Positions 12,551 to 55,282 of a stretch of 64,000 nt of DNA are shown here, piece after piece; the first letter of the stretch is position 1; the number at the start of each line of letters is the position of its first letter. The translations under genes and the position numbers were made by a program. Source of the DNA: Acidithiobacillus ferrooxidans ATCC 23270. Its GTDB lineage: Bacteria > Pseudomonadota > Gammaproteobacteria > Acidithiobacillales > Acidithiobacillaceae. The stretch covers positions 1-64,000 of the forward strand of contig NC_011761.1 in NCBI RefSeq assembly GCF_000021485.1, read 5' to 3'. A model generated the notes under the pieces. That model was not told where the DNA came from. It ran no database searches and saw only the letters and a list, made by a program, of their open reading frames with translations.

Positions 12551-12652
12551 TCCCCGCCGTTCCATGCTCACCTTGATGTTTTCCTTGTCCACCGGGATAT
12601 ATTTGGCGATCACCGCCAGGAGTTCTTCCTGCAATGCCGGCAGGAAGTCGGG
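12551..12652 (-). pseudogene. Duplicated fragment of minE
   Basis: About 102 bases match the inside of the intact minE (13499-13600) with only three visible mismatches, in the same orientation. The fragment encodes [20 protein letters not shown] and the following residues to SMERRG, then hits a stop, so both the MinD-binding N-terminus and the last 15 codons are missing. It cannot make a functional MinE. With the real gene it forms a direct repeat flanking the DUF4160/DUF2442 pair. Confidence 0.9.
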
Positions 12653-12683
12653 GCGGTCTATAGTGGACCCCCTCATCCCGTTA

Positions 12684-13450: not shown

Positions 13451-13702
13451 TCAGTGCTGATCCGGGAAAAGAACGTTCAATTCCAGCACTTCAAAATCTC
13501 CCCGCCGTTCCATGCTCACCTTGATGTTTTCCTTGTCCACGGGAATGTATTTGGCGATCACCGCCAGGAGTTCTTCCTGCAATGCCGGCAGGAAGTCGGG
13601 ACCGTCGGCATCCCGCTCGTGGGCGAGGATCAGTTTCAGACGATCCTTCGCGACATTGGCGCTCTTTTTGCGGGAACCGAGGAAGTAATCAAGAAAGGAC
13701 AT
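13451..13702 (-). CDS. minE: Cell division topological specificity factor MinE
   Basis: MinE (83 aa) drives pole-to-pole oscillation of MinCD by stimulating the MinD ATPase, leaving midcell free for FtsZ. The N-terminal membrane-targeting helix MSFLDYFLGSRKKSANVAKD and the MinD-contact segment DRLKLILAHER are intact, followed by the dimerisation domain. It starts one base after the minD stop, so the two are co-translated. A longer frame from 13816 runs back into minD and is not used. Residues from PDFLPALQ to SMERRG are repeated in the fragment at 12551-12652. Confidence 0.96.
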   Translation of the reverse strand: MSFLDYFLGSRKKSANVAKDRLKLILAHERDADGPDFLPALQEELLAVIAKYIPVDKENIKVSMERRGDFEVLELNVLFPDQH

Positions 13703-13703
13703 G

Positions 13704-14513
13704 TCAGCCTCCAAAGAGTCGTTTGAAGAACCCCACCTTGACCGGCTGAATAAAGCGCAGGGGGCGCTCTTCACCGAGGAAGCGGGCGACGACGTCCTTA
13801 TAGGCCTCTGCCACATCGCTGTTTTCCATGTGAATGGCGGGTATGCCCTGATTGGAGGCCTGGAGGATCACTTCGGATTCGGGGATCACGCCCAGCAGGG
13901 GGGTGCGCAGCAGCTCCTTCACGTCGCCCAGAGAAAGCATTTCCCCATCCTCGACGCGCTTGGGGGAGTAACGGGTGAGGAGGAGATGCTCCTTCACCGG
14001 TTCCTCCCCCTGTTCCGCCCGCCGCGAGCGGGCGGCGAGAATGCCGAGAATACGGTCGGAATCGCGGACGGAGGAGACTTCCGGATTGGTGACCACAATG
14101 GCTTCGTCGGCATGGTAGAGCGCCATGAGCGCACCCGACTCGATCCCCGCCGGTGAATCGCAAACGATATAGTCGAAATCCTTGCGCAGTTCATCCATGA
14201 CCGCCGTTACCCCTTCGGTGGTCAGGGCATCTTTGTCGCGGGTTTGGGACGTGGGCAGCACGTAGAGGTTCTCACAGCGCTTATCCTTGATGAGCGCCTG
14301 CTGCAATTTGGCCTCGCCCTGGATGACATTGATGAGGTCGTACACGACCCGTCGCTCGCAACCCATGATCAGATCGAGGTTGCGCAGACCCACGTCGAAG
14401 TCGATGACGACGGTACGATAGCCACGCAGGGCGAGGCCGCTGGCAAAGGCGGCGCTGGTGGTGGTTTTGCCGACCCCACCCTTTCCGGAAGTGATGACAA
14501 TGATTTTGGCCAC
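13704..14513 (-). CDS. minD: Septum site-determining ATPase MinD
   Basis: MinD (269 aa) is a ParA-like membrane ATPase that recruits MinC to the cell poles. The deviant Walker A GKGGVGKTT is at residues 10-18, switch DFDVGLRNLDLIMG follows, and the C-terminal FFKRLFGG is the amphipathic membrane-targeting helix. Length is typical. It lies 18 bases after minC and one base before minE, so minCDE form one minus-strand unit continuing from the fdxA/topA/smg/dprA genes. Confidence 0.97.
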   Translation of the reverse strand: MAKIIVITSGKGGVGKTTTSAAFASGLALRGYRTVVIDFDVGLRNLDLIMGCERRVVYDLINVIQGEAKLQQALIKDKRCENLYVLPTSQTRDKDALTTEGVTAVMDELRKDFDYIVCDSPAGIESGALMALYHADEAIVVTNPEVSSVRDSDRILGILAARSRRAEQGEEPVKEHLLLTRYSPKRVEDGEMLSLGDVKELLRTPLLGVIPESEVILQASNQGIPAIHMENSDVAEAYKDVVARFLGEERPLRFIQPVKVGFFKRLFGG

Positions 14514-14531: not shown

Positions 14532-15263
14532 TTATATGTTTAAAGCCGTAATATGCAATTGCTCGTCGCGGCTGTAAATCTGTGCCGCTTTGCCCCAGAG
14601 GGGATAGCCAGGTTCCAGCGTCCGGTAGAGACCCGCGACAGAAACCAGTTCCGCCTCCAGGCTCATGCAAAAAATTCGCGCTGTCTCCTGCCCGTTGACA
14701 CCGGCAAGGGCGCGGCCACGTAAGGGGCCGTATACGTGGATGTTGCCGTCGGCCATGATCTCGGCGCCGGCGTTGACGGCGGCAAGACAGACGAGATCGC
14801 CACCGCGGGCGTAGCTGCGTTGGCCACCGCGTATGGGGTGATCCATAATCAGACCGCCCGGATTTGCGGGGACGGGTTGCGCTGGCGGCGGCGTCTCCGG
14901 TTGCAGGGCGGCGTTACGCTCCTGGCCCCGCAAAACGGGAAGGTGCAGCGCTTGCGCCAGAGCCTGGTGGCCGGGCGCGGCATTACGCAAACCGACCGGG
15001 AACCAGTTGGCGGCGCGCAATACCTCCAGGATTTCGGGCAAAGCCAAAGGCGCTTCTTCGGGTATGGCACTCAGATCCAGGACCACCGGTGCATGGCGAT
15101 GGAAATCGGCGGCCGCTGGGTGGCGACGATGCTCTTCGGCGATGCGTTGGGCGAGCTGCTGTGGATTATTGCTTTCCAGATGGAGGATGGAGAGGGTGAA
15201 AACGCCCCCTGACACGCGTAGGGGTGCGCTGGATTCCGTGCCGGGGGAGCGGGGGTTAGCCAT
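14532..15263 (-). CDS. minC: Septum site-determining protein MinC
   Basis: MinC (243 aa) is the FtsZ polymerisation inhibitor of the Min system. The N-terminal FtsZ-binding domain runs to about residue 105, a Pro-rich linker (PETPPPAQPVP) follows, and the C-terminal beta-helix contains IRGGQRSYARGGDLV and GNIHVYGPLRGRALAG, the MinD-binding signature. The ATG lies inside one end of a perfect 18-base parS-type palindrome (15262-15279), so a bound ParB would cover its ribosome-binding region. fdxA ends 30 bases upstream on the same strand. Confidence 0.95.
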   Translation of the reverse strand: MANPRSPGTESSAPLRVSGGVFTLSILHLESNNPQQLAQRIAEEHRRHPAAADFHRHAPVVLDLSAIPEEAPLALPEILEVLRAANWFPVGLRNAAPGHQALAQALHLPVLRGQERNAALQPETPPPAQPVPANPGGLIMDHPIRGGQRSYARGGDLVCLAAVNAGAEIMADGNIHVYGPLRGRALAGVNGQETARIFCMSLEAELVSVAGLYRTLEPGYPLWGKAAQIYSRDEQLHITALNI

Positions 15264-15279
15264 GTTTCACGTGAAACAT
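15262..15279. promoter_or_regulatory. parS centromere site (ParB binding)
   Basis: ATGTTTCACGTGAAACAT is a perfect palindrome containing the 16-base sequence TGTTTCACGTGAAACA, identical to the near-universal bacterial chromosomal parS consensus. ParB nucleates here for origin segregation. The distance of about 15 kb from dnaN fits the usual clustering of parS near the origin. It lies between fdxA and minC and includes the minC start codon. Confidence 0.93.
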
Positions 15280-15293
15280 CGGCGCGCATCGCT

Positions 15294-15620
15294 TCATGAG
15301 CGTCGCAGCAAAGGGCGCTTGTCGCCCTTGCCATTCCAGGTTTCCGCATCCGGCAAAGCCGCTTTTTTACGGAGGATGACCGGCCAGTCTCGGGCAAGCT
15401 CCGCGTTGATGGCGGTAAAGTCGCGCTGATCGGGCGGTACCTCGTCGTCTGCGAAGATCGCGTCGGCCGGGCACTCGGGCACGCAGGCAGCGCAGTCTAT
15501 ACACTCAACGGGATCGATGACGAGAAAGTTCGGCCCTTCGTGGAAGCACTCCACCGGGCAGACCTCCGCGCAATCGGTATATTTACACTGGATACAGTTT
15601 TCGGTAACGACGTAGGTCAT
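15294..15620 (-). CDS. fdxA: 7Fe-8S ferredoxin FdxA
   Basis: A 108-aa low-potential ferredoxin with one [3Fe-4S] and one [4Fe-4S] cluster, an electron carrier in the cytoplasm. The N-terminal cysteine pattern [18 protein letters not shown] and the second set [12 protein letters not shown] are the standard Azotobacter-type FdxA ligands, with the usual C-terminal extension. The start codon overlaps the topA stop by 4 bases and minC follows, placing it inside the topA-min unit. Confidence 0.93.
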
Positions 15621-18172
15621 GAATCGCTGGCACCTTTCGCGGCGCGTTTACGGGATGGGGAGGTCTTGCCTTCGCCGGCTGACGGGCCCCTGGCTTTGGA
15701 AGCGGCGGGTTTTTTTGCCGCGGCGCTCGTCGTTTTGGCTTTCGCGGTTTTTTGGGCGGCAACCGCCGTGGCTTCCGTGGCCGGTTTTTTGGCCGTTTTC
15801 GCTGTGGTTTTGCGGGCGGGAGCAGCCTTCTTGGCCGGGGGCGCGCGCTTTTCGCGGGGCGGCGGCGGGCTGTATCCGGGCAGCAGGGCGGCGATTTCCG
15901 CGTCGCTGGCGTTTGCCGGGAAGTGGAAAGCACATTCGCTCTGCGGGCAGGCAAGCTGCTCTCCCAGCCGCTTGCCGCTTTTCTCGATCATGATGGGCCA
16001 GCCGCAACGCGGACAGGGCCGTGCCACCGGTGGTCCCCAGACGGCGTAAGTGCATTTGGGGTAGGTATTGCAGGAATAAAAAACCTTGCCGTAGCGGCTG
16101 CGTTTTTCGACCAGTTCGCCCTCACCGCACTGGGGACAGGTGACGCCCGATGACTTGGGCTGGGTCAGTGGTTCGATATGTTTACATTCCGGATAGCCGC
16201 TGCAGGAGATGAAACGCCCATAACGCCCGGTTTTGTACACCAACGGCTTGCCACAATCGGGACAATCGCGGCCTACGGGTTCGGCGGGTTCGCGCGGCCC
16301 GTCTACCGGACGGGTATAGTTGCATTCGGGATAACCGGAACAGGCCACGAAACGCCCATGGCGCCCGAGGCGCAGGAATAAGGGCTTGCCACATTGGGGG
16401 CAGGCTTCCTCCAGCGCCTCACTGGTCGCTTCGGCGCGGCTGACGTTGGCTTTTTCGTCGAGCAGCGCGCGGAAGGGGCTCCAGAACGCACTGAGGACGG
16501 GTTGCCATTGCTTTTCGCCGCGGGAGACGGCGTCCAGTTCATCTTCCATGCTGGCGGTGAAGCCGTAGTCCACATATCGTTCAAAGTGGTTGATCAGGAA
16601 CCGGCCGACTACCCGGCCGAGGTCGGTAGGATGGAATCGGCGCTGCTCGACGGCGACGTATTCGCGGTTCTGCAGAGTCTGAATGATGCTGGCGTAGGTG
16701 GATGGTCGGCCGATACCGTGGGCTTCCAGGGTTTTGACCAGGGTGGCGTCGCTGTAACGAGGAGGGGGCTCGGTAAAGTGCTGTTCGGGATCGATGCCGA
16801 GCACCAGAGGTTCATCGCCGACATCGAGGGGCGGCAGGATGCGGTTGCTCTCATCCTCGTCGCCGTCGTCCTTGCCTTCCTGATAGACGGCCATGAAGCC
16901 GGGAAAGGTCACCGTGGAGCCGTTGGCGCGCAGGGTCCAGTGTGTCCCGGCATCCATATCCACGGCGACGAGATCGAGGCGGGCCGGCGCCATCTGGCAG
17001 GCAATGCTGCGCTTCCAGACCAGATCGTACAGGCGCCAGAGATCGCGTTCCAGCACCCCCTGGAGGGATTCCGGGGTGCGCGCGATGTCCGTAGGACGGA
17101 TGGCTTCGTGCGCTTCCTGGGCGTTCTTGGTTTTGGTCTTGTAGCGGCGCGGCGTCTCGGGGACAAATTCGCTGCCGTAGTAGCCATCGATAAAAGTACG
17201 GATCGAGGCAATGGCCTCCTCGGCGAGATTGACGGCATCGGTACGCATATAACTGATGAGGCCCACGGTCTCGTTGCCGATATTGATGCCTTCATAAAGC
17301 TGTTGGGCAACGCGCATGGTCCGGCTGGCGTTGAAGCCGAGCTTGCGCGACGCTTCCTGCTGCAGAGTGGAGGTGGTGAAGGGCGCGGCCGGCTGGCGTT
17401 GCCGGCTTTTGCGCTCCACTTCCCGGACCCGCAGTGCCTGGCGACCGAGGTCGTCTTCCATGCCGCTACGAATGGCCTGGGCCTGGTCACCGTCGGCGAT
17501 GTCGAACTGTTCGAGCTTTTTATTCTGCCAGTGGGTCAGGCGGCCGGTGAACGCGCTGCCCGCGTGTTGCAGGCGGCTGGCGATGGTCCAGTATTCGCGG
17601 CTGACGAAGGCCTCGATTTCGTTTTCGCGCTCACAGATCAGGCGCAGGGCGGCACTTTGTACCCGTCCCGCGGAGAGCCCCGGACGCACCTTGCGCCAGA
17701 GCAGCGGTGACAGGTTGAAGCCCACCAGATAATCGAGGGCGCGGCGCGCCTGCTGGGCGTTGACCAGATCCATGGCGATTTCGCGGGGATGGGCAATGGC
17801 CTCCTGCACGGCTTTTTTGGTGATTTCATGAAAGACCACGCGTTGCGTCGGCTTGTCGCCGAGCAGCTGGCGTTCGCGCAAGAGCTCCACCAGGTGCCAG
17901 GAGATGGCCTCGCCTTCGCGATCCGGATCGGTGGCGAGCCATAGTTTATCGGCACCGCGCAGGGCCTTGGCGATGGCGTCCACATGGCGCTCGTTGCGCT
18001 CGATGGGGGTGTAGCGCATGGCGAAATCATGCTCCGTATCCACGGCGCCCTCTTTGGGCTGCAGATCACGGACATGGCCGTAGGACGCAAGGACCTGAAA
18101 ATCGTCCCCCAGATATTTCTGGATGGTCTTGGCTTTTGCCGGTGATTCTACGATAACGAGCTGGTGTGCCAT
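15617..18172 (-). CDS. topA: DNA topoisomerase I
   Basis: Type IA topoisomerase (851 aa) that relaxes negative supercoils. The Toprim domain opens with [17 protein letters not shown] and contains [12 protein letters not shown]; the catalytic tyrosine is near residue 308 in [12 protein letters not shown]. Four C-terminal zinc-ribbon repeats (such as [13 protein letters not shown] and [13 protein letters not shown]) follow. The last roughly 80 residues are a Lys/Ala/Pro-rich histone-H1-like tail, probably disordered and DNA binding. It is flanked by smg and fdxA on the same strand. Confidence 0.96.
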
Positions 18173-23590: not shown

Positions 23591-24180
23591 GCAGCGCGTT
23601 GGGCTTGTCGGTCGGCAGAAGCAGGCAGCGGCTGTTGGTCGTCATACTGCTCGGGCTGGGCGGTATTTTTTGCGCAACCGGGGCGGCAGTGGCTGGTCCG
23701 GCGTTTCACGTGGAACGTGTGCGGGTAATCCCCCATGCGAATGCTGTTGAAATCGATGCCAGCGTGCAGTTGGGCAAGGAAGCGCTCCTGCAGCAGGTGC
23801 TCGACCAGGGGCAGACGCTGACTTGGGTTGTGGAGGCGGAGTGGCGGGAACCCGAGCCCTTCTCCTTCATTCCCGGTATCGGCGTTCATGCACGCCGGGA
23901 ACAGCGCTGGCACATCCGTTATTATCCTTTGACAAACCAATATGCCATTGAGGATCAGCAGGGCGTGCTCACCTTGTACGCGCAGTGGAGTGAGGTCGTC
24001 ACGGCGCTGAGCCGGGTGCGGAACTTCGTGCTCCCGCTGGCTCACGGCGCCGCGCGGGGTGAGGTGGCGTTGCGGGTGTATGTCGATAGTCAGGCCTTAC
24101 CTTTGCCGTTGCGTTTGCGATCTTTGCTGGACCACTGGAAACTGGAGTCCCCATGGACCGTCGTACCCCTTCCCCGTTGA
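23581..24180 (+). CDS. DUF4390 secreted protein
   Basis: A 199-aa protein with an N-terminal signal or anchor segment (LLVVILLGLGGIFCATGAAVA) and a DUF4390 domain, recognised by its place between rsmB and an ntrY-type kinase and by features such as RRWHIRYYPLTNQYAI-like sequence. Function is unknown; it may act in the envelope as a partner of the kinase. ATG 23581 is chosen as it starts the signal peptide; it overlaps rsmB by 10 bases and the kinase gene by 28 bases. A second parS-like site lies inside it (23702-23717). Confidence 0.8.
   Translation: MRLSSALGLSVGRSRQRLLVVILLGLGGIFCATGAAVAGPAFHVERVRVIPHANAVEIDASVQLGKEALLQQVLDQGQTLTWVVEAEWREPEPFSFIPGIGVHARREQRWHIRYYPLTNQYAIEDQQGVLTLYAQWSEVVTALSRVRNFVLPLAHGAARGEVALRVYVDSQALPLPLRLRSLLDHWKLESPWTVVPLPR
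23702..23717. promoter_or_regulatory. Second parS-like site
   Basis: CGTTTCACGTGGAACG keeps the core GTTNCACGTGNAAC of parS; only the two outermost bases and one arm symmetry differ from the perfect site at 15.26 kb. It is inside the DUF4390 coding sequence just after the signal peptide. Degenerate parS sites within genes near the origin are common. Confidence 0.6.
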
Positions 24181-46944: not shown

Positions 46945-46983
46945 GTGGTGTTCTAGTTGGATCAACTTGAAAGGAGAATGGAC

Positions 46984-47796
46984 ATGAGCAACGAATCAAA
47001 TCTGTTGAGCCGCAGAGAAGCAATGAAGCGTACGGTGCTGGGCGCGGGGGCGGTCGCCGTGGGTGCCCTGGGGGCCAATGCCTCCGCCATGGCCGCCGGC
47101 ATGAGCGGAAACCCCGCCAACCTGTTGCCCACCGGTGCCGGCACGCTGCAGGAATTGAGTAACCGGCTGGCCAAAGCGCCGCGGCGGCGCGATTTCAAAA
47201 CCGTTCCCATGATGTTGACCAGCCCGGACCAATGGGACAGCGAAGCATTGGATGAGATACTGCACTACGCCGGCGGTCCCAAGCAGGTATGGGACAATAC
47301 CGCGCTGACCAGCCCGTGGCTGAACCTGATGCGCAACAGCATGAATGTGCAGATCTGGTCGTTCAAGCATCCGGACTTCCTCGCCCTGTCGGCCACCCAT
47401 GGTTCCGCGCATTTTGCCCTGTACGACAACTACATCTGGAACAAGTATCTCGCCACCGCCACCAAAGGTAAATGGAAGGCGAACGCCTGGTTGAAACAGC
47501 CCCCGGCGTCGGCGACCAATCCGGCCGATTTTGAGGATCCCGAAGGCGTTTTCTCCCCCCACGACAACAGCATCATCGTGCTGCAGCGCCGTGGTGCCGT
47601 ATTCCTGGCCTGCCACAACGAGGTGTGGGAGCTCACCATGGGTTTACATTCCAAGGGCATCAACCCGGATCATCTGAGCCATGAAGAAATGGCTGCGGAA
47701 TTCACCAACCACTTGATTCCCGGCGTAGTGCTCACCCCGGGTATTGTCGGTACCTTACCGGAGTTGCAGTTGGCGGGCTATCAGTACGCCAAATAA
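46984..47796 (+). CDS. Tat-exported protein of unknown function, copy 1
   Basis: A 270-aa protein with a twin-arginine signal (LLSRREAMKRTVLGAGAVAVG) cleaved after ASAMA, so it is exported folded and may carry a cofactor. The mature part is Trp/His-rich with conserved blocks RRRDFKTVPMML, YAGGPKQVWDNT, ATHGSAHFALYDNYIWNKY and NHLIPGVVLTPGIVGTLPEL. I recognise no known catalytic motif. ATG 46984 has AAGGAG 7 bases upstream. A paralogue of identical length is at 53965-54777, in both cases next to the same solute-binding protein and DoxDA, implying a role in periplasmic thiosulfate metabolism. Confidence 0.85.
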   Translation: MSNESNLLSRREAMKRTVLGAGAVAVGALGANASAMAAGMSGNPANLLPTGAGTLQELSNRLAKAPRRRDFKTVPMMLTSPDQWDSEALDEILHYAGGPKQVWDNTALTSPWLNLMRNSMNVQIWSFKHPDFLALSATHGSAHFALYDNYIWNKYLATATKGKWKANAWLKQPPASATNPADFEDPEGVFSPHDNSIIVLQRRGAVFLACHNEVWELTMGLHSKGINPDHLSHEEMAAEFTNHLIPGVVLTPGIVGTLPELQLAGYQYAK

Positions 47797-47820
47797 CTGT
47801 CCATAAATGAGGGTAATGAG

Positions 47821-48831
47821 ATGAAAAAAAGTAAAACGCTGCAAGTCGCTACCGTAGCTGCAGTCGCATCCTTGCTGTTCTGCGGAGTAGCCGCCCAGGC
47901 CGCGGATATGGGATGGAACGGAAAAGCCGAGGCTCCCCGTTATCAGGAGCAGGTGTTTCCGCCCTGGCAACATGGTGAAAACAATCCCGCGATCCATCAG
48001 GGCCTGGAGTTCACGGTCCCCGAAGTCGATGATCTGGCGGACTTCCACGGCTCCATAGACAATCCGCAACTCACGATTTTTGTGGGCGGCAATTACTACT
48101 TCGCCATGGCTCCGCTGGTAAAAGCCTTTGAAAAGGAATACCCGGCTCTCCGGGGGAAGATCTACTACGAGACGTTGCCGCCCGGCATCCTGATCAAGCA
48201 GATGAAGCAGGGTGGCACCATCACCATCGGCAACATGACGTGGACCGTCAAGCCCGATGTCTATGCTGCCGGGCTGAAGAAAGTGAACGCCTTCATCAAG
48301 GAAGGTTTGTTGCAGGGTCCTGCGGTGCCTTATGTCACCAATGATCTGACCATCATGATCCCGAAAGGCAACCCCGCCCACATTACCGGACTCCAGGATC
48401 TGGGCAAGCCCGGTGTGCGTTTATCCATGCCCAATCCCGCCTGGGAAGGCGTCGCCAGACAGATCAAAATGTCTCTGACCAAGGCTGGCGGCCCTGCGCT
48501 GGAGAAAATGGTGTACGACACCAAAGTCAAGAACGGGGAAACGATCCTCACCCATATCCATCATCGTCAGACGCCGCTCTTCCTGATGCAGGGCCTCGCT
48601 GACGCGGGGGTAACGTGGAAATCGGAAGCGATCTTCCAGGAACAGGCGGGGCACCCCATTGCCAACGTCCCGATCCCCGCGAAGGACAACACCACGGCGA
48701 TCTATGCTTCCGCCGTAGTCAAGGGCGCGGCGCATCCCAAGTGGGCTAAGGACTGGGTGAATTTTTTGAAGTCACCCACCGCCTTGCAGATCTTTGAGCA
48801 CTACGGTTTCAAGCCGTACACGGGCAAATAA
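47821..48831 (+). CDS. Orphan periplasmic solute-binding protein, copy 1
   Basis: A 336-aa type 2 (ModA/sulfate-binding-like) periplasmic protein with a signal peptide (VAAVASLLFCGVAAQAA). Typical blocks are LTIFVGGNYYFAMAPLVKAF, VPYVTNDLTIMIPKGNP and NFLKSPTALQIFEHYGF. No ABC permease or ATPase is encoded nearby, so it probably delivers or buffers a sulfur oxyanion for periplasmic enzymes or a non-ABC carrier rather than feeding an importer; this is inference. It follows the Tat gene by 24 bases and is separated from doxDA by a strong terminator-like hairpin. Confidence 0.85.
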   Translation: MKKSKTLQVATVAAVASLLFCGVAAQAADMGWNGKAEAPRYQEQVFPPWQHGENNPAIHQGLEFTVPEVDDLADFHGSIDNPQLTIFVGGNYYFAMAPLVKAFEKEYPALRGKIYYETLPPGILIKQMKQGGTITIGNMTWTVKPDVYAAGLKKVNAFIKEGLLQGPAVPYVTNDLTIMIPKGNPAHITGLQDLGKPGVRLSMPNPAWEGVARQIKMSLTKAGGPALEKMVYDTKVKNGETILTHIHHRQTPLFLMQGLADAGVTWKSEAIFQEQAGHPIANVPIPAKDNTTAIYASAVVKGAAHPKWAKDWVNFLKSPTALQIFEHYGFKPYTGK

Positions 48832-48833
48832 GT

Positions 48834-48861
48834 AAAAAGGGAGGGAATTCCCTCCCTTTTT
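48834..48861 (+). terminator. Terminator-like hairpin between SBP and doxDA
   Basis: AAAAAGGGAGGGAA and TTCCCTCCCTTTTT are a perfect 28-base palindrome starting three bases after the solute-binding gene stop and ending in five T. It is a textbook intrinsic terminator; partial read-through would give more Tat/solute-binding protein mRNA than DoxDA mRNA. The palindrome could act on both strands. Confidence 0.85.
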
Positions 48862-48883
48862 CAGTCAGAACAGGAGAAACTTC

Positions 48884-49966
48884 ATGGCAACGACCATGTC
48901 AAATACCACCCCGCAGGACACGCCGGATCGCAGTTGGCGTTTCGCCGCCATCGCCCTTCTTGCCGTACGCTTCGTCCAGGGATGGATCTACTGGGGCGGC
49001 GGGACCCGGCGTTTTATCTACGGCCCGCAAAAGCTGGACGTACATGGCCACTGGATGGCCTACAAATTTCAGACGGCAATGCCCGGAGCCATACTGGGCA
49101 CGGATCATCTGGTCGCTTTTTTATTGCATCATTTCACCCTGCTCTATGCTGGGGTGATCATTTTCAGCGCCGTTGAAATGATCGCAGGCTTTATGCTGAT
49201 TGTCGGCTTGTATACCCGCCTCGCGGCGGTGGCCACCCTCGGTTTGTCCTTCGTGCTGATGCTGCTGTTTGGTTGGCAGGGCGCCACCTGCATCGATGAA
49301 TGGACCATGGCTGCGTCCAACTTTGCCATGGGCATCACGCTGTTTCTTGCGGGAAGCGGCGCGTATTCCGTGGACAACTGGCTCCTGTCGCGGAAACCGA
49401 CGCTGGCCCAAAATGGTCTGTTCCGCTGGCTGGGGGGTGCCCTGCCTTTGCCTTTGAGCGATGGCGCCTTCAAGAAGCTCGCGTTGACATTGTTCTGGAT
49501 TGCCGTGGCCTTTATCGTCGCCACTTACAGTTATTACCGCGGTTCGGTGTTCACGCCTTTTCACGGTGGCCCAGTGAGTCCGGCGAAGCATCACTGGAAG
49601 CTGGACGGAGCCACGCTGCAGAAGGGCGGTGGTGTGACATTCCACGCCTATGTGGATTCCGGAGTGGCCGCAGAGCCGTCCAATGTGCTCGAGGCGGCGC
49701 TGATCGATACCAGCACCGGGAAGCCGGTGGAGAAGTGGGCCAGTTCGACCCTCTCCACGTTGCCAAAAAGCGCCTTTTCCAACGATTTTGCCTACCAGCA
49801 GATTCACACCGGGAAGTTCGGCATTACCGGACCTGTCGGTGCGCAGGCCACCGTACGCCTGCCGTCAACGATGCCAAGCGGGGTCACCATCGGTCAGGGC
49901 TCTTACGTTCTCGAGCTGACCTCCGTAAACGGCCATGTATGGAAAGCGCCAGTGCAGCATCCATGA
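48884..49966 (+). CDS. doxDA: Thiosulfate:quinone oxidoreductase DoxDA, copy 1
   Basis: A 360-aa fusion of the two TQO subunits. The N-terminal DoxD part (about 1-170) has four membrane helices and the conserved RFVQGWIYWGGGTRRFIYG and GWQGATCIDEWTMAASNFAM, with a single conserved Cys. A further helix (FWIAVAFIVATYSYY) leads to the DoxA-like periplasmic domain (about 230-360). The enzyme oxidises thiosulfate to tetrathionate and reduces quinone. GGAG precedes ATG 48884 (MATTMSN). Copy 2 at 51795-52877 has exactly the same length and nearly identical N-terminal half. Confidence 0.93.
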   Translation: MATTMSNTTPQDTPDRSWRFAAIALLAVRFVQGWIYWGGGTRRFIYGPQKLDVHGHWMAYKFQTAMPGAILGTDHLVAFLLHHFTLLYAGVIIFSAVEMIAGFMLIVGLYTRLAAVATLGLSFVLMLLFGWQGATCIDEWTMAASNFAMGITLFLAGSGAYSVDNWLLSRKPTLAQNGLFRWLGGALPLPLSDGAFKKLALTLFWIAVAFIVATYSYYRGSVFTPFHGGPVSPAKHHWKLDGATLQKGGGVTFHAYVDSGVAAEPSNVLEAALIDTSTGKPVEKWASSTLSTLPKSAFSNDFAYQQIHTGKFGITGPVGAQATVRLPSTMPSGVTIGQGSYVLELTSVNGHVWKAPVQHP

Positions 49967-51794: not shown

Positions 51795-52877
51795 TCAGCG
51801 TTGCAGGGGTATGGTCCAGACGCTGCCATTTACCGAATTCAGCTTGAGCGTATAAGTACCTGCCGGCAGCTTCAGATCGCTCGCCGCTGGGGGCAGGATA
51901 ATGGTAGCCTTGGAACCCACCGGGCCGGTGATCCCGTATTTACCGATATGAATTTTTTGATAATCATAGTCGTTTTTCAAGGCCGTTTTGGGCAAGGCGG
52001 CAAGCTTGGCGCTATCCCACTCCTCGACCACACTGCCATTCCGGGGGTCGACAAGTGTGACATGCAGCACGTTGGATGGTGCTTCGGGGGTGCCCGCGTC
52101 CACATAGGCATGGAAGGTCACCGTGCCGTCCCCTTGCAGGCGGCCGTTAGAGAGGGACCAATGATGTTTGGAGGGGCTCACGGGGCCGCCATGGAAAGGG
52201 GTGACCACCGAGCCGCGATAGTAGCTGTAGGTACCGACGATGAAAGCGACGGCGATCCAGAACAGCACCAGCGCGAATTTCTTGTAGGCCTGATCGCTCA
52301 GGGGCAACGGCAAACTGCCGCCCATCCAGCGAAACCACCCTTTTTGGGCCAGGCCGGGCTTTTTCGCGAGGAGCCAGTTGTCCAGGGAATAAGCGCCTCC
52401 GCCCACCAGCAGGAGGGTCACGCCCATGGCGAAATTGGATGCGGCCATGGTCCATTCGTCTATGCAGGTAGCCCCCTGCCAACCGAACAGGAGCATCAGC
52501 ACGAAGGACAAGCCGATGGTGGTCAGGGCGGCGATGCGCGTCAGCAGGCCGGTGATGAGCATGAAGCCCGCAAATAGCTCCACCAGGCTGAAGACGATGA
52601 CCCCGACATAGAGCAGAACGAAATGCTGCAGCAGGAAGGAGACGAGATGCTCCGTGCCCAGCAGGGCACCCGGCATGGCCGTCTGAAACTTATAGGCCAT
52701 CCAGTGCCCGCCACCCCACGCATCCAGCTTTTGCGGGCCGTAGATGAACCGTCTGGTGCCGCCGCCCCAGTAAATCCAACCCTGCACAAAACGCACGGCG
52801 AGCAGCCCTATCGCCGCCAGGCGCCATCCTCTGTCCACTGAAAATGTACTGCCGTTTACGCTCGTTGCACTACCCAT
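51795..52877 (-). CDS. doxDA: Thiosulfate:quinone oxidoreductase DoxDA, copy 2
   Basis: The second fused DoxDA, also 360 aa from ATG 52877 (MGSATSVNG), which has AGGAG 8 bases upstream. The DoxD half shares RFVQGWIYWGGGTRRFIYG and GWQGATCIDEWTMAASNFAM without change, plus a two-residue length change at the LDAWGGGHW segment. The DoxA-like half is clearly more diverged from copy 1. Such duplication may give isoenzymes for different thiosulfate levels or conditions; this is inference. It follows the second solute-binding protein and precedes the thioredoxin gene. Confidence 0.93.
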   Translation of the reverse strand: MGSATSVNGSTFSVDRGWRLAAIGLLAVRFVQGWIYWGGGTRRFIYGPQKLDAWGGGHWMAYKFQTAMPGALLGTEHLVSFLLQHFVLLYVGVIVFSLVELFAGFMLITGLLTRIAALTTIGLSFVLMLLFGWQGATCIDEWTMAASNFAMGVTLLLVGGGAYSLDNWLLAKKPGLAQKGWFRWMGGSLPLPLSDQAYKKFALVLFWIAVAFIVGTYSYYRGSVVTPFHGGPVSPSKHHWSLSNGRLQGDGTVTFHAYVDAGTPEAPSNVLHVTLVDPRNGSVVEEWDSAKLAALPKTALKNDYDYQKIHIGKYGITGPVGSKATIILPPAASDLKLPAGTYTLKLNSVNGSVWTIPLQR

Positions 52878-52897
52878 GATCTTTCTCCTGATGATCC

Positions 52898-52914
52898 GGG
52901 GGGCCATGCCCCCC
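52898..52914 (-). repeat. Strong hairpin between SBP and doxDA copy 2
   Basis: GGGGGGC-CAT-GCCCCCC is a perfect 7-base GC stem with a 3-base loop, placed between solute-binding protein and DoxDA in exactly the position of the terminator-like palindrome of copy 1, although the two sequences are unrelated. No T-run follows. Confidence 0.6.
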
Positions 52915-52929
52915 TAATGCGCGCGTGGA

Positions 52930-53943
52930 TCACTTCCCCTGGGTATACGGCTGAAAGCCATACTCTTCGAAGATGTGCAGGGCCGTTGGCGACTTGAGGA
53001 AGTTTACCCACGCCTCTGCCCATTTGGGGTGAGGCGCATCCTTGACTGCAGCAGCCGCATAGATGGCCTTGGTATTGAATTGGGCCGGAATCGCGACGTT
53101 GCCGATGGGATTGCCGATCTTTTCCTGGAAGATGGCTTCGGATTTCCAGGTTACTCCGGCAACGGCCCTTCCCTGCATCAGGAACATGGGACTCTGGCGG
53201 TGGTGAATTTCCGTCAGAATGGTTTCGCCGTTCTTTACCTTGGTGTCATACACCGCGGTGGCCAGTGCCGGTCCACCCGCCTTCGTGAGGCTCATCTTGA
53301 TTTGCCGGGCGATGCCCTCCCATGCGGGATTGGGCATGACCAGCCGCATTCCGGGTTTGCCCAGATCCTGGAGTCCGCTGATGTGGGCCGGGTTGCCCTT
53401 GGGAACCATGATGGTGAGGTCGTTGGTGACATAAGGCACCGCCGGCCCCTTTAGCAGACCGTGCTGAACGTAATAGTCCACTTTCTGCAACCCGGCGGCG
53501 TATACGTCGGGCTTGACCGTCCAGGTCATGTTCCCCACCGTGATGGTATTGCCATGCTCCATCTGCCGGATCAGCAAGCCCGGCGGAATGGTCTCGTAAT
53601 AGATTCTGCCTTTGATCTCCGGGTGCTCCTTCTCAAACGCGGCCACCAGCGGTGCCATGGCAAAAAAGTAGTTACCCCCCACGAAGATGCTCAGTTTCGG
53701 GTTGTCGATGCTACCGTGAAAATCCGGCAGGTTGTCGACTTCTGGGATGGTAAAATCCAGACCTTTGGAGGTCGCTGGATTGTTGGCGCCATTTTGCCAG
53801 GGAGGAAATACCTGACTCTTCGTGCCATGGAACTCGCCCGGGGCACCCCAGCCGTTGTCCGCCGCCACGGCGCAGGTACCAAAAACCATCAGGGAGGCGG
53901 CTGCCAGCAGTGGGGCCAGCCGTAGTGTGCTGCTTTTCGTCAT
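52930..53943 (-). CDS. Orphan periplasmic solute-binding protein, copy 2
   Basis: A 337-aa paralogue of the protein at 47821-48831. A signal peptide (LLAAASLMVFGTCAVAA) is followed by the same blocks: LSIFVGGNYFFAMAPLVAAF, VPYVTNDLTIMVPKGNP and NFLKSPTALHIFEEYGF. As in copy 1, no ABC transporter components are nearby. It lies 21 bases after the Tat gene and 52 bases before doxDA copy 2, so the order Tat - binding protein - DoxDA is kept exactly. Confidence 0.85.
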   Translation of the reverse strand: MTKSSTLRLAPLLAAASLMVFGTCAVAADNGWGAPGEFHGTKSQVFPPWQNGANNPATSKGLDFTIPEVDNLPDFHGSIDNPKLSIFVGGNYFFAMAPLVAAFEKEHPEIKGRIYYETIPPGLLIRQMEHGNTITVGNMTWTVKPDVYAAGLQKVDYYVQHGLLKGPAVPYVTNDLTIMVPKGNPAHISGLQDLGKPGMRLVMPNPAWEGIARQIKMSLTKAGGPALATAVYDTKVKNGETILTEIHHRQSPMFLMQGRAVAGVTWKSEAIFQEKIGNPIGNVAIPAQFNTKAIYAAAAVKDAPHPKWAEAWVNFLKSPTALHIFEEYGFQPYTQGK

Positions 53944-53964
53944 CCTATCGCTCCTCTTGATCTA

Positions 53965-54777
53965 CTATTTTGCGTATTGAAAGCCGGCCAACTGCAGTTC
54001 CGGCAACGTACCTACCACCCCCGGCGTCAGGATGACACCGGGAATGAGATGGTTGGTAAACTCGGCCGCCATCTGTTCATGGCTGAGGCCATCGGGATTG
54101 ATGCCCTTCTTGAGTACGCCTTCGGTGATTTCCCAGATGCCGTTGTGACAGCCCAGGAAAACGGCACCGCGACGCTGCAATACCGTGACACTGTTGTCCC
54201 CCGGAGAGAACACTCCTTCGGGATTCTCAAAGTTGGCGGGGTCGGCCGCCGCCGCCGGCGGTTCTTTGATCCATTCATTGTCTTTCCATTTTCCGCCGGT
54301 CATCTGCGCCAGATATTTGTTCCAGATGAAATCGTCGTACAGCGCCCAGTGGGCGCTGCCATGGGTGGCCGATACACAGAGGAAATCCGGATGCCTGAAC
54401 GACCAGACCTGCACATTCATGCTGTTGCGCATCAAGTTCAGCCACGGACTGGAAACATCGGTATTATCCCAGACCTGTTTGGGGCCACCGGCGTAATGGA
54501 TGATCTCCCTCAGCGCCGCATCATCCCATTCGTCGGGTTTGGTGAGGATCATGGGAACCGTTTTGAAGTCGCGCCGCCGCGGCGTTTTGGCCAGGCGTTC
54601 GCCGAGTTCCTTCAGACTCCTGGCGCCAGTCGGCAACAAGTTGCCGGGATTCCCGCTCAGGCCGGCCGCCACGGCGCTCGTCTGGGTACCCACGGCACCC
54701 ACAGCCAGGGCTCCGGCACCCCACAATGCATGTTTCATGGCGTCGCGACGGCTCAGCAGATTTTGCTCGTTACTCAT
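53965..54777 (-). CDS. Tat-exported protein of unknown function, copy 2
   Basis: A 270-aa paralogue of the protein at 46984-47796. The twin-arginine signal LLSRRDAMKHALWGAGALAVG is intact, with cleavage probably after SAVA. Conserved blocks RRRDFKTVPMIL, YAGGPKQVWDNT, ATHGSAHWALYDDFIWNKY and NHLIPGVILTPGVVGTLPEL are shared. ATG 54777 is chosen by alignment with copy 1 and the AGGAG upstream; a longer frame to 54870 is not supported. Function unknown. Confidence 0.85.
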   Translation of the reverse strand: MSNEQNLLSRRDAMKHALWGAGALAVGAVGTQTSAVAAGLSGNPGNLLPTGARSLKELGERLAKTPRRRDFKTVPMILTKPDEWDDAALREIIHYAGGPKQVWDNTDVSSPWLNLMRNSMNVQVWSFRHPDFLCVSATHGSAHWALYDDFIWNKYLAQMTGGKWKDNEWIKEPPAAAADPANFENPEGVFSPGDNSVTVLQRRGAVFLGCHNGIWEITEGVLKKGINPDGLSHEQMAAEFTNHLIPGVILTPGVVGTLPELQLAGFQYAK

Positions 54778-54811
54778 GGTTCTCTCCTTTTGGTGTGCCA
54801 AACTATACGGT

Positions 54812-55282
54812 CTACTGTTTTTGCGCCGCATGAAGGGCGTCCAGAACGGATTCGTCGGTTTTCTGGCCAACCGCCCGCGCCGCGGTGTTATCCGTCAGCA
54901 ATGCGCCACGCTGGAGATAGTAGGCGGTGGTTTTGCCGTTTATCTGGACCAGCGACAGGGTGAGCGGACAGAGACTCGTGGCGGCGGGGTCGGTGCGCAG
55001 GTAGCCGACAATGGAGCTGGACTGGCATACGACCAACAGCCGCTCGGCCTGGATGTCCGGAGGAATCCGGGCGGCAAGCTGGGGGTTGCCCTTGTGAATG
55101 CGGGGGAGCACGTTCAGATCGTCCACGATCTTGAAGTGGCGCTCCGTCAGTTGCCGGCTGATTTTGACGGCGGCAATATCCGCAGGCATGGCAAAAGAGG
55201 TGCTGATGATGGCTGGCGCGGCGCTGGCCGTATCCATGGCCAGGCAGGCAAGAGCAGAGAGAAGAAACCGTTTTTTCCACAT
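54812..55282 (-). CDS. Secreted DUF302-like protein
   Basis: A 156-aa protein with a signal peptide (LLSALACLAMDTASA). The mature part has the feel of a DUF302 domain (ERLLVVCQSSSIVGYLRTDP, CPLTLSLVQINGKTTAYYLQ), a fold found in several periplasmic proteins of sulfur and metal metabolism, but the match is by impression only. Two cysteines in the mature part may pair. It lies 34 bases before the second Tat gene and is probably in the same transcript. Confidence 0.6.
   Translation of the reverse strand: MWKKRFLLSALACLAMDTASAAPAIISTSFAMPADIAAVKISRQLTERHFKIVDDLNVLPRIHKGNPQLAARIPPDIQAERLLVVCQSSSIVGYLRTDPAATSLCPLTLSLVQINGKTTAYYLQRGALLTDNTAARAVGQKTDESVLDALHAAQKQ

Follow-up and report, generated by a model that had tools for sequence, protein, structure and literature searches.

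What is known of how bacteria coordinate origin segregation with division-site choice comes for the most part from protein contacts, those of MipZ, of Noc and between Par and Min proteins. As regards the latter, the accessible part of a P. aeruginosa study reports two-hybrid contacts of ParB with MinE and of ParA with MinC (PMC9927451), and an excerpted review table lists contacts between Par and Min proteins in Deinococcus as well. MipZ and the Par-Min contacts link the ParB-bound origin with FtsZ placement by protein, whereas the link in Acidithiobacillus described here consists of DNA position alone, the ParB partition site (parS) overlapping the start codon of minC. This site resembles the origin-proximal parS of B. 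subtilis, Caulobacter and P. aeruginosa in that it is the same 16-base palindrome, lies near the presumed origin and accompanies a chromosomal parAB; it differs from them in overlapping the minC start codon in all 28 Acidithiobacillaceae genomes with a minC match and, in the genome of the window, in being present as one strong copy. Like parS3 and parS4 of P. aeruginosa, which lie upstream of PA0011 and PA0013, it is intergenic and next to a gene start. The P. aeruginosa sites lie with promoters (both points from the available portion of PMC5521831), while at the Acidithiobacillus site a weak scan found none and the downstream operon is minCDE. A chromosomal parS near an operon is also found in S. 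pneumoniae, where it is tied to the expression of comCDE. The distance between the two is 5 kb in the pneumococcus (extract of PMC7022226), whereas the Acidithiobacillus parS touches the start codon. The preliminary description of the locus knew of no such arrangement, and a literature search, made mostly in open papers, turned up no title that places a parS at minC, absence from print being unproven. A search combining Acidithiobacillus, parS and ParB yielded a single paper, whose subject was trees of ribosomal proteins.

The window, that is, the whole stretch of DNA analyzed, comprises 64,000 nucleotides. A motif scan of it locates the 16-base palindrome TGTTTCACGTGAAACA at 15263 to 15278, with no strand assigned, showing 0 mismatches to the parS consensus. 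The claim that the core is identical to the chromosomal consensus is therefore borne out at 16 of 16 positions. The same description stated that the 18-base palindrome ATGTTTCACGTGAAACAT (15262 to 15279, equally strandless) includes the ATG of minC. The overlap is real, since the 18-mer has the A and the T in common with the start codon, but containment is not, as the G of the ATG falls outside; the 16-mer shares the A alone, at base 15263. When up to three mismatches are allowed, the window contains 2 parS matches against 0.08 expected from shuffles. Moreover, the genome, a single contig of 2,982,397 bases (2.98 Mb), has no match with at most two mismatches other than 15263-15278, the chance expectation for one given 16-mer in ~3 Mb being roughly 0.0007 under uniform composition. 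CACGTG cores are present in other binding sites, which would be the ground for reading the palindrome as a product of chance or as the site of another regulator. Against it stand the 16/16 match, where 0.08 would be expected even at three mismatches or fewer, the family-wide conservation and the presence of a parS-type ParB in the same genomes, and the probability left to that reading is close to nil.

The chromosomal ParB exceeds the TIGR00180 cut-off, and a ParB match is found in 28 of the 29 family genomes, the exception (G020) being 71% complete. Residues R173 and G201, which are reported to be absolutely conserved among ParB orthologues, with Q and R in their place in Noc (accessible text of PMC7383237), occur in all 28 family ParBs, 22 recognized by motif search and 6 by eye. 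The 22 motif-matched proteins have Q at position 179 and R at 184, and a reading of the alignment indicates that two contact positions are unlike the Caulobacter protein, with K171 replaced by R and Q162 by H. A Noc-binding site (NBS) was considered for the palindrome and rejected: the ParBs carry R173 with G201 (28/28) instead of Q173 with R201, and the Noc model scores 211 bits with a cut-off of 315. The genome of the window thus encodes a ParB with parS-type specificity residues. The start-codon overlap conserved throughout the family, the perfect match and the parS-type ParB together support the identity of the site, which is almost certainly a real chromosomal parS at the minC start. A further gene for a ParB-like protein (PF02195; G000:C1:1489320-1489706, locus L033) lies in mid-chromosome in the genome of the window, adjoined by an ORF that looks ParA-like by eye; this gene, at 1,489,320, probably belongs to a mobile element.

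Conservation was followed in 57 genomes searched for minC, with matches in 43 of them, 28 of the 29 in the family and 15 outside; the family genome with no match (G027) is 69% complete. A parS-like site with 0 to 2 mismatches, its last base being the A of the minC ATG, is present in 28 of the 28 family genomes with minC, and the check proposed earlier, the conservation of the palindrome at minC in other acidithiobacilli, was thus run and passed. The site is perfect in the 17 genomes of the genus of the window (g1; 17/17), has one mismatch in both g2 and both g3 genomes (2/2 each), and has one or two in the seven g4 genomes (7/7). Identity of MinC to the protein of the window goes down to 47% (13 of the 28 MinC sequences aligned), and mean information is 1.87 bits in the 16 parS columns versus 0.42 in the 15 columns that precede them. 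We read the overlap as a centromere that appears to have been kept at one gene boundary through the whole family.

Outside the family, no 16-mer with fewer than four mismatches to parS is found in the stretch around the minC match of the 15 genomes (0/15), nor between -400 and +60 of the match in 74 named loci (0/74) among the best 80 of 433 relatives. As a positive comparison, the latter scan, among the same best 80 of 433, detects the site in 6 of 6 family loci, which are the same as G005, G011, G013, G020, G023 and G028 and are not independent cases. Stretches located ~50 bases ahead of the minC match in L072 and L093 (four mismatches) and in L088 (five) were examined as parS relics and discarded, as they have no CACGTG core; the three are near-identical and were counted as one non-parS case. 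A stretch of L154 (four mismatches, at -180) was rejected as a relic on the same ground, the absence of the core. In G030, a genome of the same taxonomic order, the sole site having at most two mismatches sits inside a gene that looks recF-like by eye.

On the minus strand of the window the order is dprA, smg, topA, fdxA, parS, minC, minD and minE. MinC, MinD, FdxA, TopA and DprA score above curated NCBIfam cut-offs, and the gene in the dprA-topA interval is presumably smg. All gene coordinates in this paragraph are on the minus strand. The gene of the septum site-determining protein MinC spans 14532 to 15263 (TIGR01222, 185 bits, cut-off 95), with its ATG at 15263-15262-15261, and is followed by minD at 13704 to 14513 (TIGR01968, 353 bits, cut-off 213) and by minE at 13451 to 13708, which was named by eye and whose start is inferred, the listed ORF being longer. 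Directly upstream of parS lies the ferredoxin gene fdxA (15294 to 15620; NF045490, 158 bits, cut-off 135), which has a 4-nt overlap with topA (15617 to 18172; TIGR01051). The minC ATG at 15263-15261 is well supported. A start further upstream is blocked, because parS carries a TGA at -6 in frame with minC in 28 of 28 family genomes; no alternative in-frame ATG, GTG or TTG precedes the conserved FT[LF] motif in 14 of the 28, and for the window genome a start at codon 17 (GTG) is formally possible. The gap between fdxA and minC is 30 nt in the window genome, with parS intergenic, beside the minC start. The distance that separates the minC ATG from the stop of fdxA is 29-30 nt in 19 of the 28 genomes, 17-23 nt in seven, and -4 (an overlap) in two. 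At minC, parS is intergenic in 26 of the 28, and in L022 and L023, where it has two mismatches, it is placed inside the end of the fdxA frame.

The gene dnaN starts at position 86, and an ORF read by eye as dnaA ends ~200 bases before the end of the contig. This dnaA-dnaN junction leads us to presume oriC there, with parS at a distance of 15.3 kb. The parB gene (2,893,017) lies ~89 kb off, across the presumed origin, adjoined by parA, rsmG and mnmG as identified by eye. Between one and six sites with no more than two mismatches are found per family genome (29 genomes), and in six of the 29 (G000, G002, G007, G010, G020 and G023) the minC site is the only one. A second, weak parS-like site of the window (23702 to 23717, no strand assigned) has three mismatches and lies inside a DUF4390 gene; its equivalent in G004, likewise in the DUF4390 gene, has two, and in the 11 genomes in which both are seen on one contig the distance between this second site and the minC site is 7.7-8.5 kb. 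In G004 and G021 a third site is seen at the mnmG 3′ end, its counterpart in the window genome (L080:420) having three mismatches.

Taking together that (i) the parS is perfect, (ii) it is the single strong copy, (iii) it is origin-proximal, (iv) parAB is present in the genome, and (v) the ParB is of the parS type, we propose that the site is probably the principal origin-proximal chromosomal parS, kept for segregation and with its minC-side end pinned by the start codon. One parS is sufficient in P. aeruginosa, as stated in the available parts of PMC4368675 and PMC7022226. In this model, the minC parS would serve as the loading point of ParB-CTP clamps, from which they would spread to adjacent genes, and the parS region would be the first to be moved by ParA. 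The family ancestor would have acquired the site at the fdxA-minC boundary, whether it arose at this place or was brought to it, and segregation would have kept it since, no site being better and some genomes having no other strong one. On the minC side the site's terminal base doubles as the A of the ATG, so that this end could not drift. G019 (g4) behaves as expected if the start codon pins that end: another site of this genome, GGTTTCACGTGAAACC, has G/C outer pairs, and the minC site retains A on the ATG side. Three facts speak against the principal-parS assignment. parAB is ~89 kb distant, beyond the presumed origin; the minC-side half-site is invariant, a weak hint (p ~0.06) of a second constraint on that side; and in two g4 genomes, G025 and G028, the minC site has two mismatches versus one at another site in the genome, so that there it may not be the principal parS.

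If the site is the principal parS, its conservation at minC is explained without regulation, because segregation alone suffices where the site is the best or the only one. A direct effect on minC would then be secondary and modest, ParB-dense DNA hindering RNA polymerase that comes from fdxA or topA and lowering the output of minCDE. ParB would be more likely to hinder such read-through than to cover a promoter, because topA, fdxA and minC are co-directional, with a gap of 30 nt, and no promoter was found: a simple scan for sigma70-like promoters gave none at 15150-16000 with 0.1 expected, which is weak evidence. ParB repression of minC is as such plausible. That ParB at parS represses minCDE in such a way that Min levels track ParB loading, origin number or the replication cycle, and that this regulation has been selected, is in our estimate unlikely. 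For ParB control of the min operon speaks that the position at minC is fixed in the whole family and that the site is intergenic in 26 of 28 genomes while two other sites inspected lie inside genes. A comparable distinction is made in P. aeruginosa, where, in the portion of PMC5521831 available, ParB represses genes beside the intergenic parS3 and parS4 and not beside the intragenic parS1 and parS2; likewise the pneumococcal parS affects comCDE (extract of PMC7022226). However, the promoter scan of the minC region, weak as it is, was negative and parS is inside a gene run, and in L022 and L023 (2/28) the degenerate site lies within the fdxA frame end. Moreover, the same extract of PMC7022226 records that in B. 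subtilis the genes adjacent to parS are unchanged on loss of Spo0J, and that in V. cholerae just three genes changed in the region covered by ParB. The regulatory link between parS and minCDE is an attractive hypothesis, not a result.

The start codon pins one base of the site, and its neighbours on the same side are also constant: all 28 genomes have the same bases from -8 to +2. This invariance would be accounted for if the minC-side half-site (GTGAAAC before the ATG) were used a second time at the RNA level, as the ribosome-entry stretch, with the TGA fixing the start, and the best anti-Shine-Dalgarno pairing in the window genome is indeed a GUGA inside parS (-4.0 kcal/mol). Such a value is weak, however, and three of 14 other genes of the window do no better, two frames (a tentative def and glpE) having been left out of this set as their coordinates did not fall on start codons. 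The local fold is unremarkable (z -1.10), little of the RNA hairpin survives in L019, L020, L022 and L023, and the asymmetry between half-sites is based on about four changes. With the outer pair set aside, there are 0 changes in the minC-side half and ~4 in the other (T-11 in g2, T-13 in L022 and in L023, A-9 in L029), and the p of 0.06 assumes that changes are independent and equally likely in either half. We regard this double use as improbable. A combined reading, in which the centromere would double as a control element of minCDE, ParB loading, which would vary with replication of the origin, throttling the synthesis of the FtsZ inhibitor, and the minC-side half-site would also serve the translation start, seems to us a little less remote and still very doubtful. 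The RNA hairpin as the main conserved element was rejected, given that the stem is nearly lost in the four loci named, where the DNA site persists, and given the same z.

A main parS that overlaps the beginning of a division-inhibitor operon in the whole family offers a candidate link at the DNA level. If that link were true, duplication of the origin would directly re-set division inhibition without a MipZ-like protein. Even without regulation, the principal parS would provide a clean example of a centromere fixed at a gene boundary, one of its sides being pinned by a start codon.

Several minor features accompany the locus. In seven loci (L012-L018), parS ends a frame of five codons, ATG AAA TGT TTC ACG TGA, which stops three bases before the minC ATG, and in the window palindrome the other ATG opens a short frame that overlaps the minC start. 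A direct repeat of 108 nt (12551-12658 and 13499-13606, 95% identical) is found in the minE region, the 3′ part of minE having a second, truncated copy ~0.95 kb downstream. Between the copies lie a DUF2442 gene and another small ORF, which would fit the insertion of a small module after minE. The segment 8331-12525, which follows immediately downstream of the minE region, looks by eye like a chaperone-usher pilus cluster with spore-coat-U-like subunits. Further along the window, 46957-49966 (plus strand) and 51795-54870 (minus strand) are facing copies of a three-gene cluster, with the genes in the same order and the proteins similar by eye.
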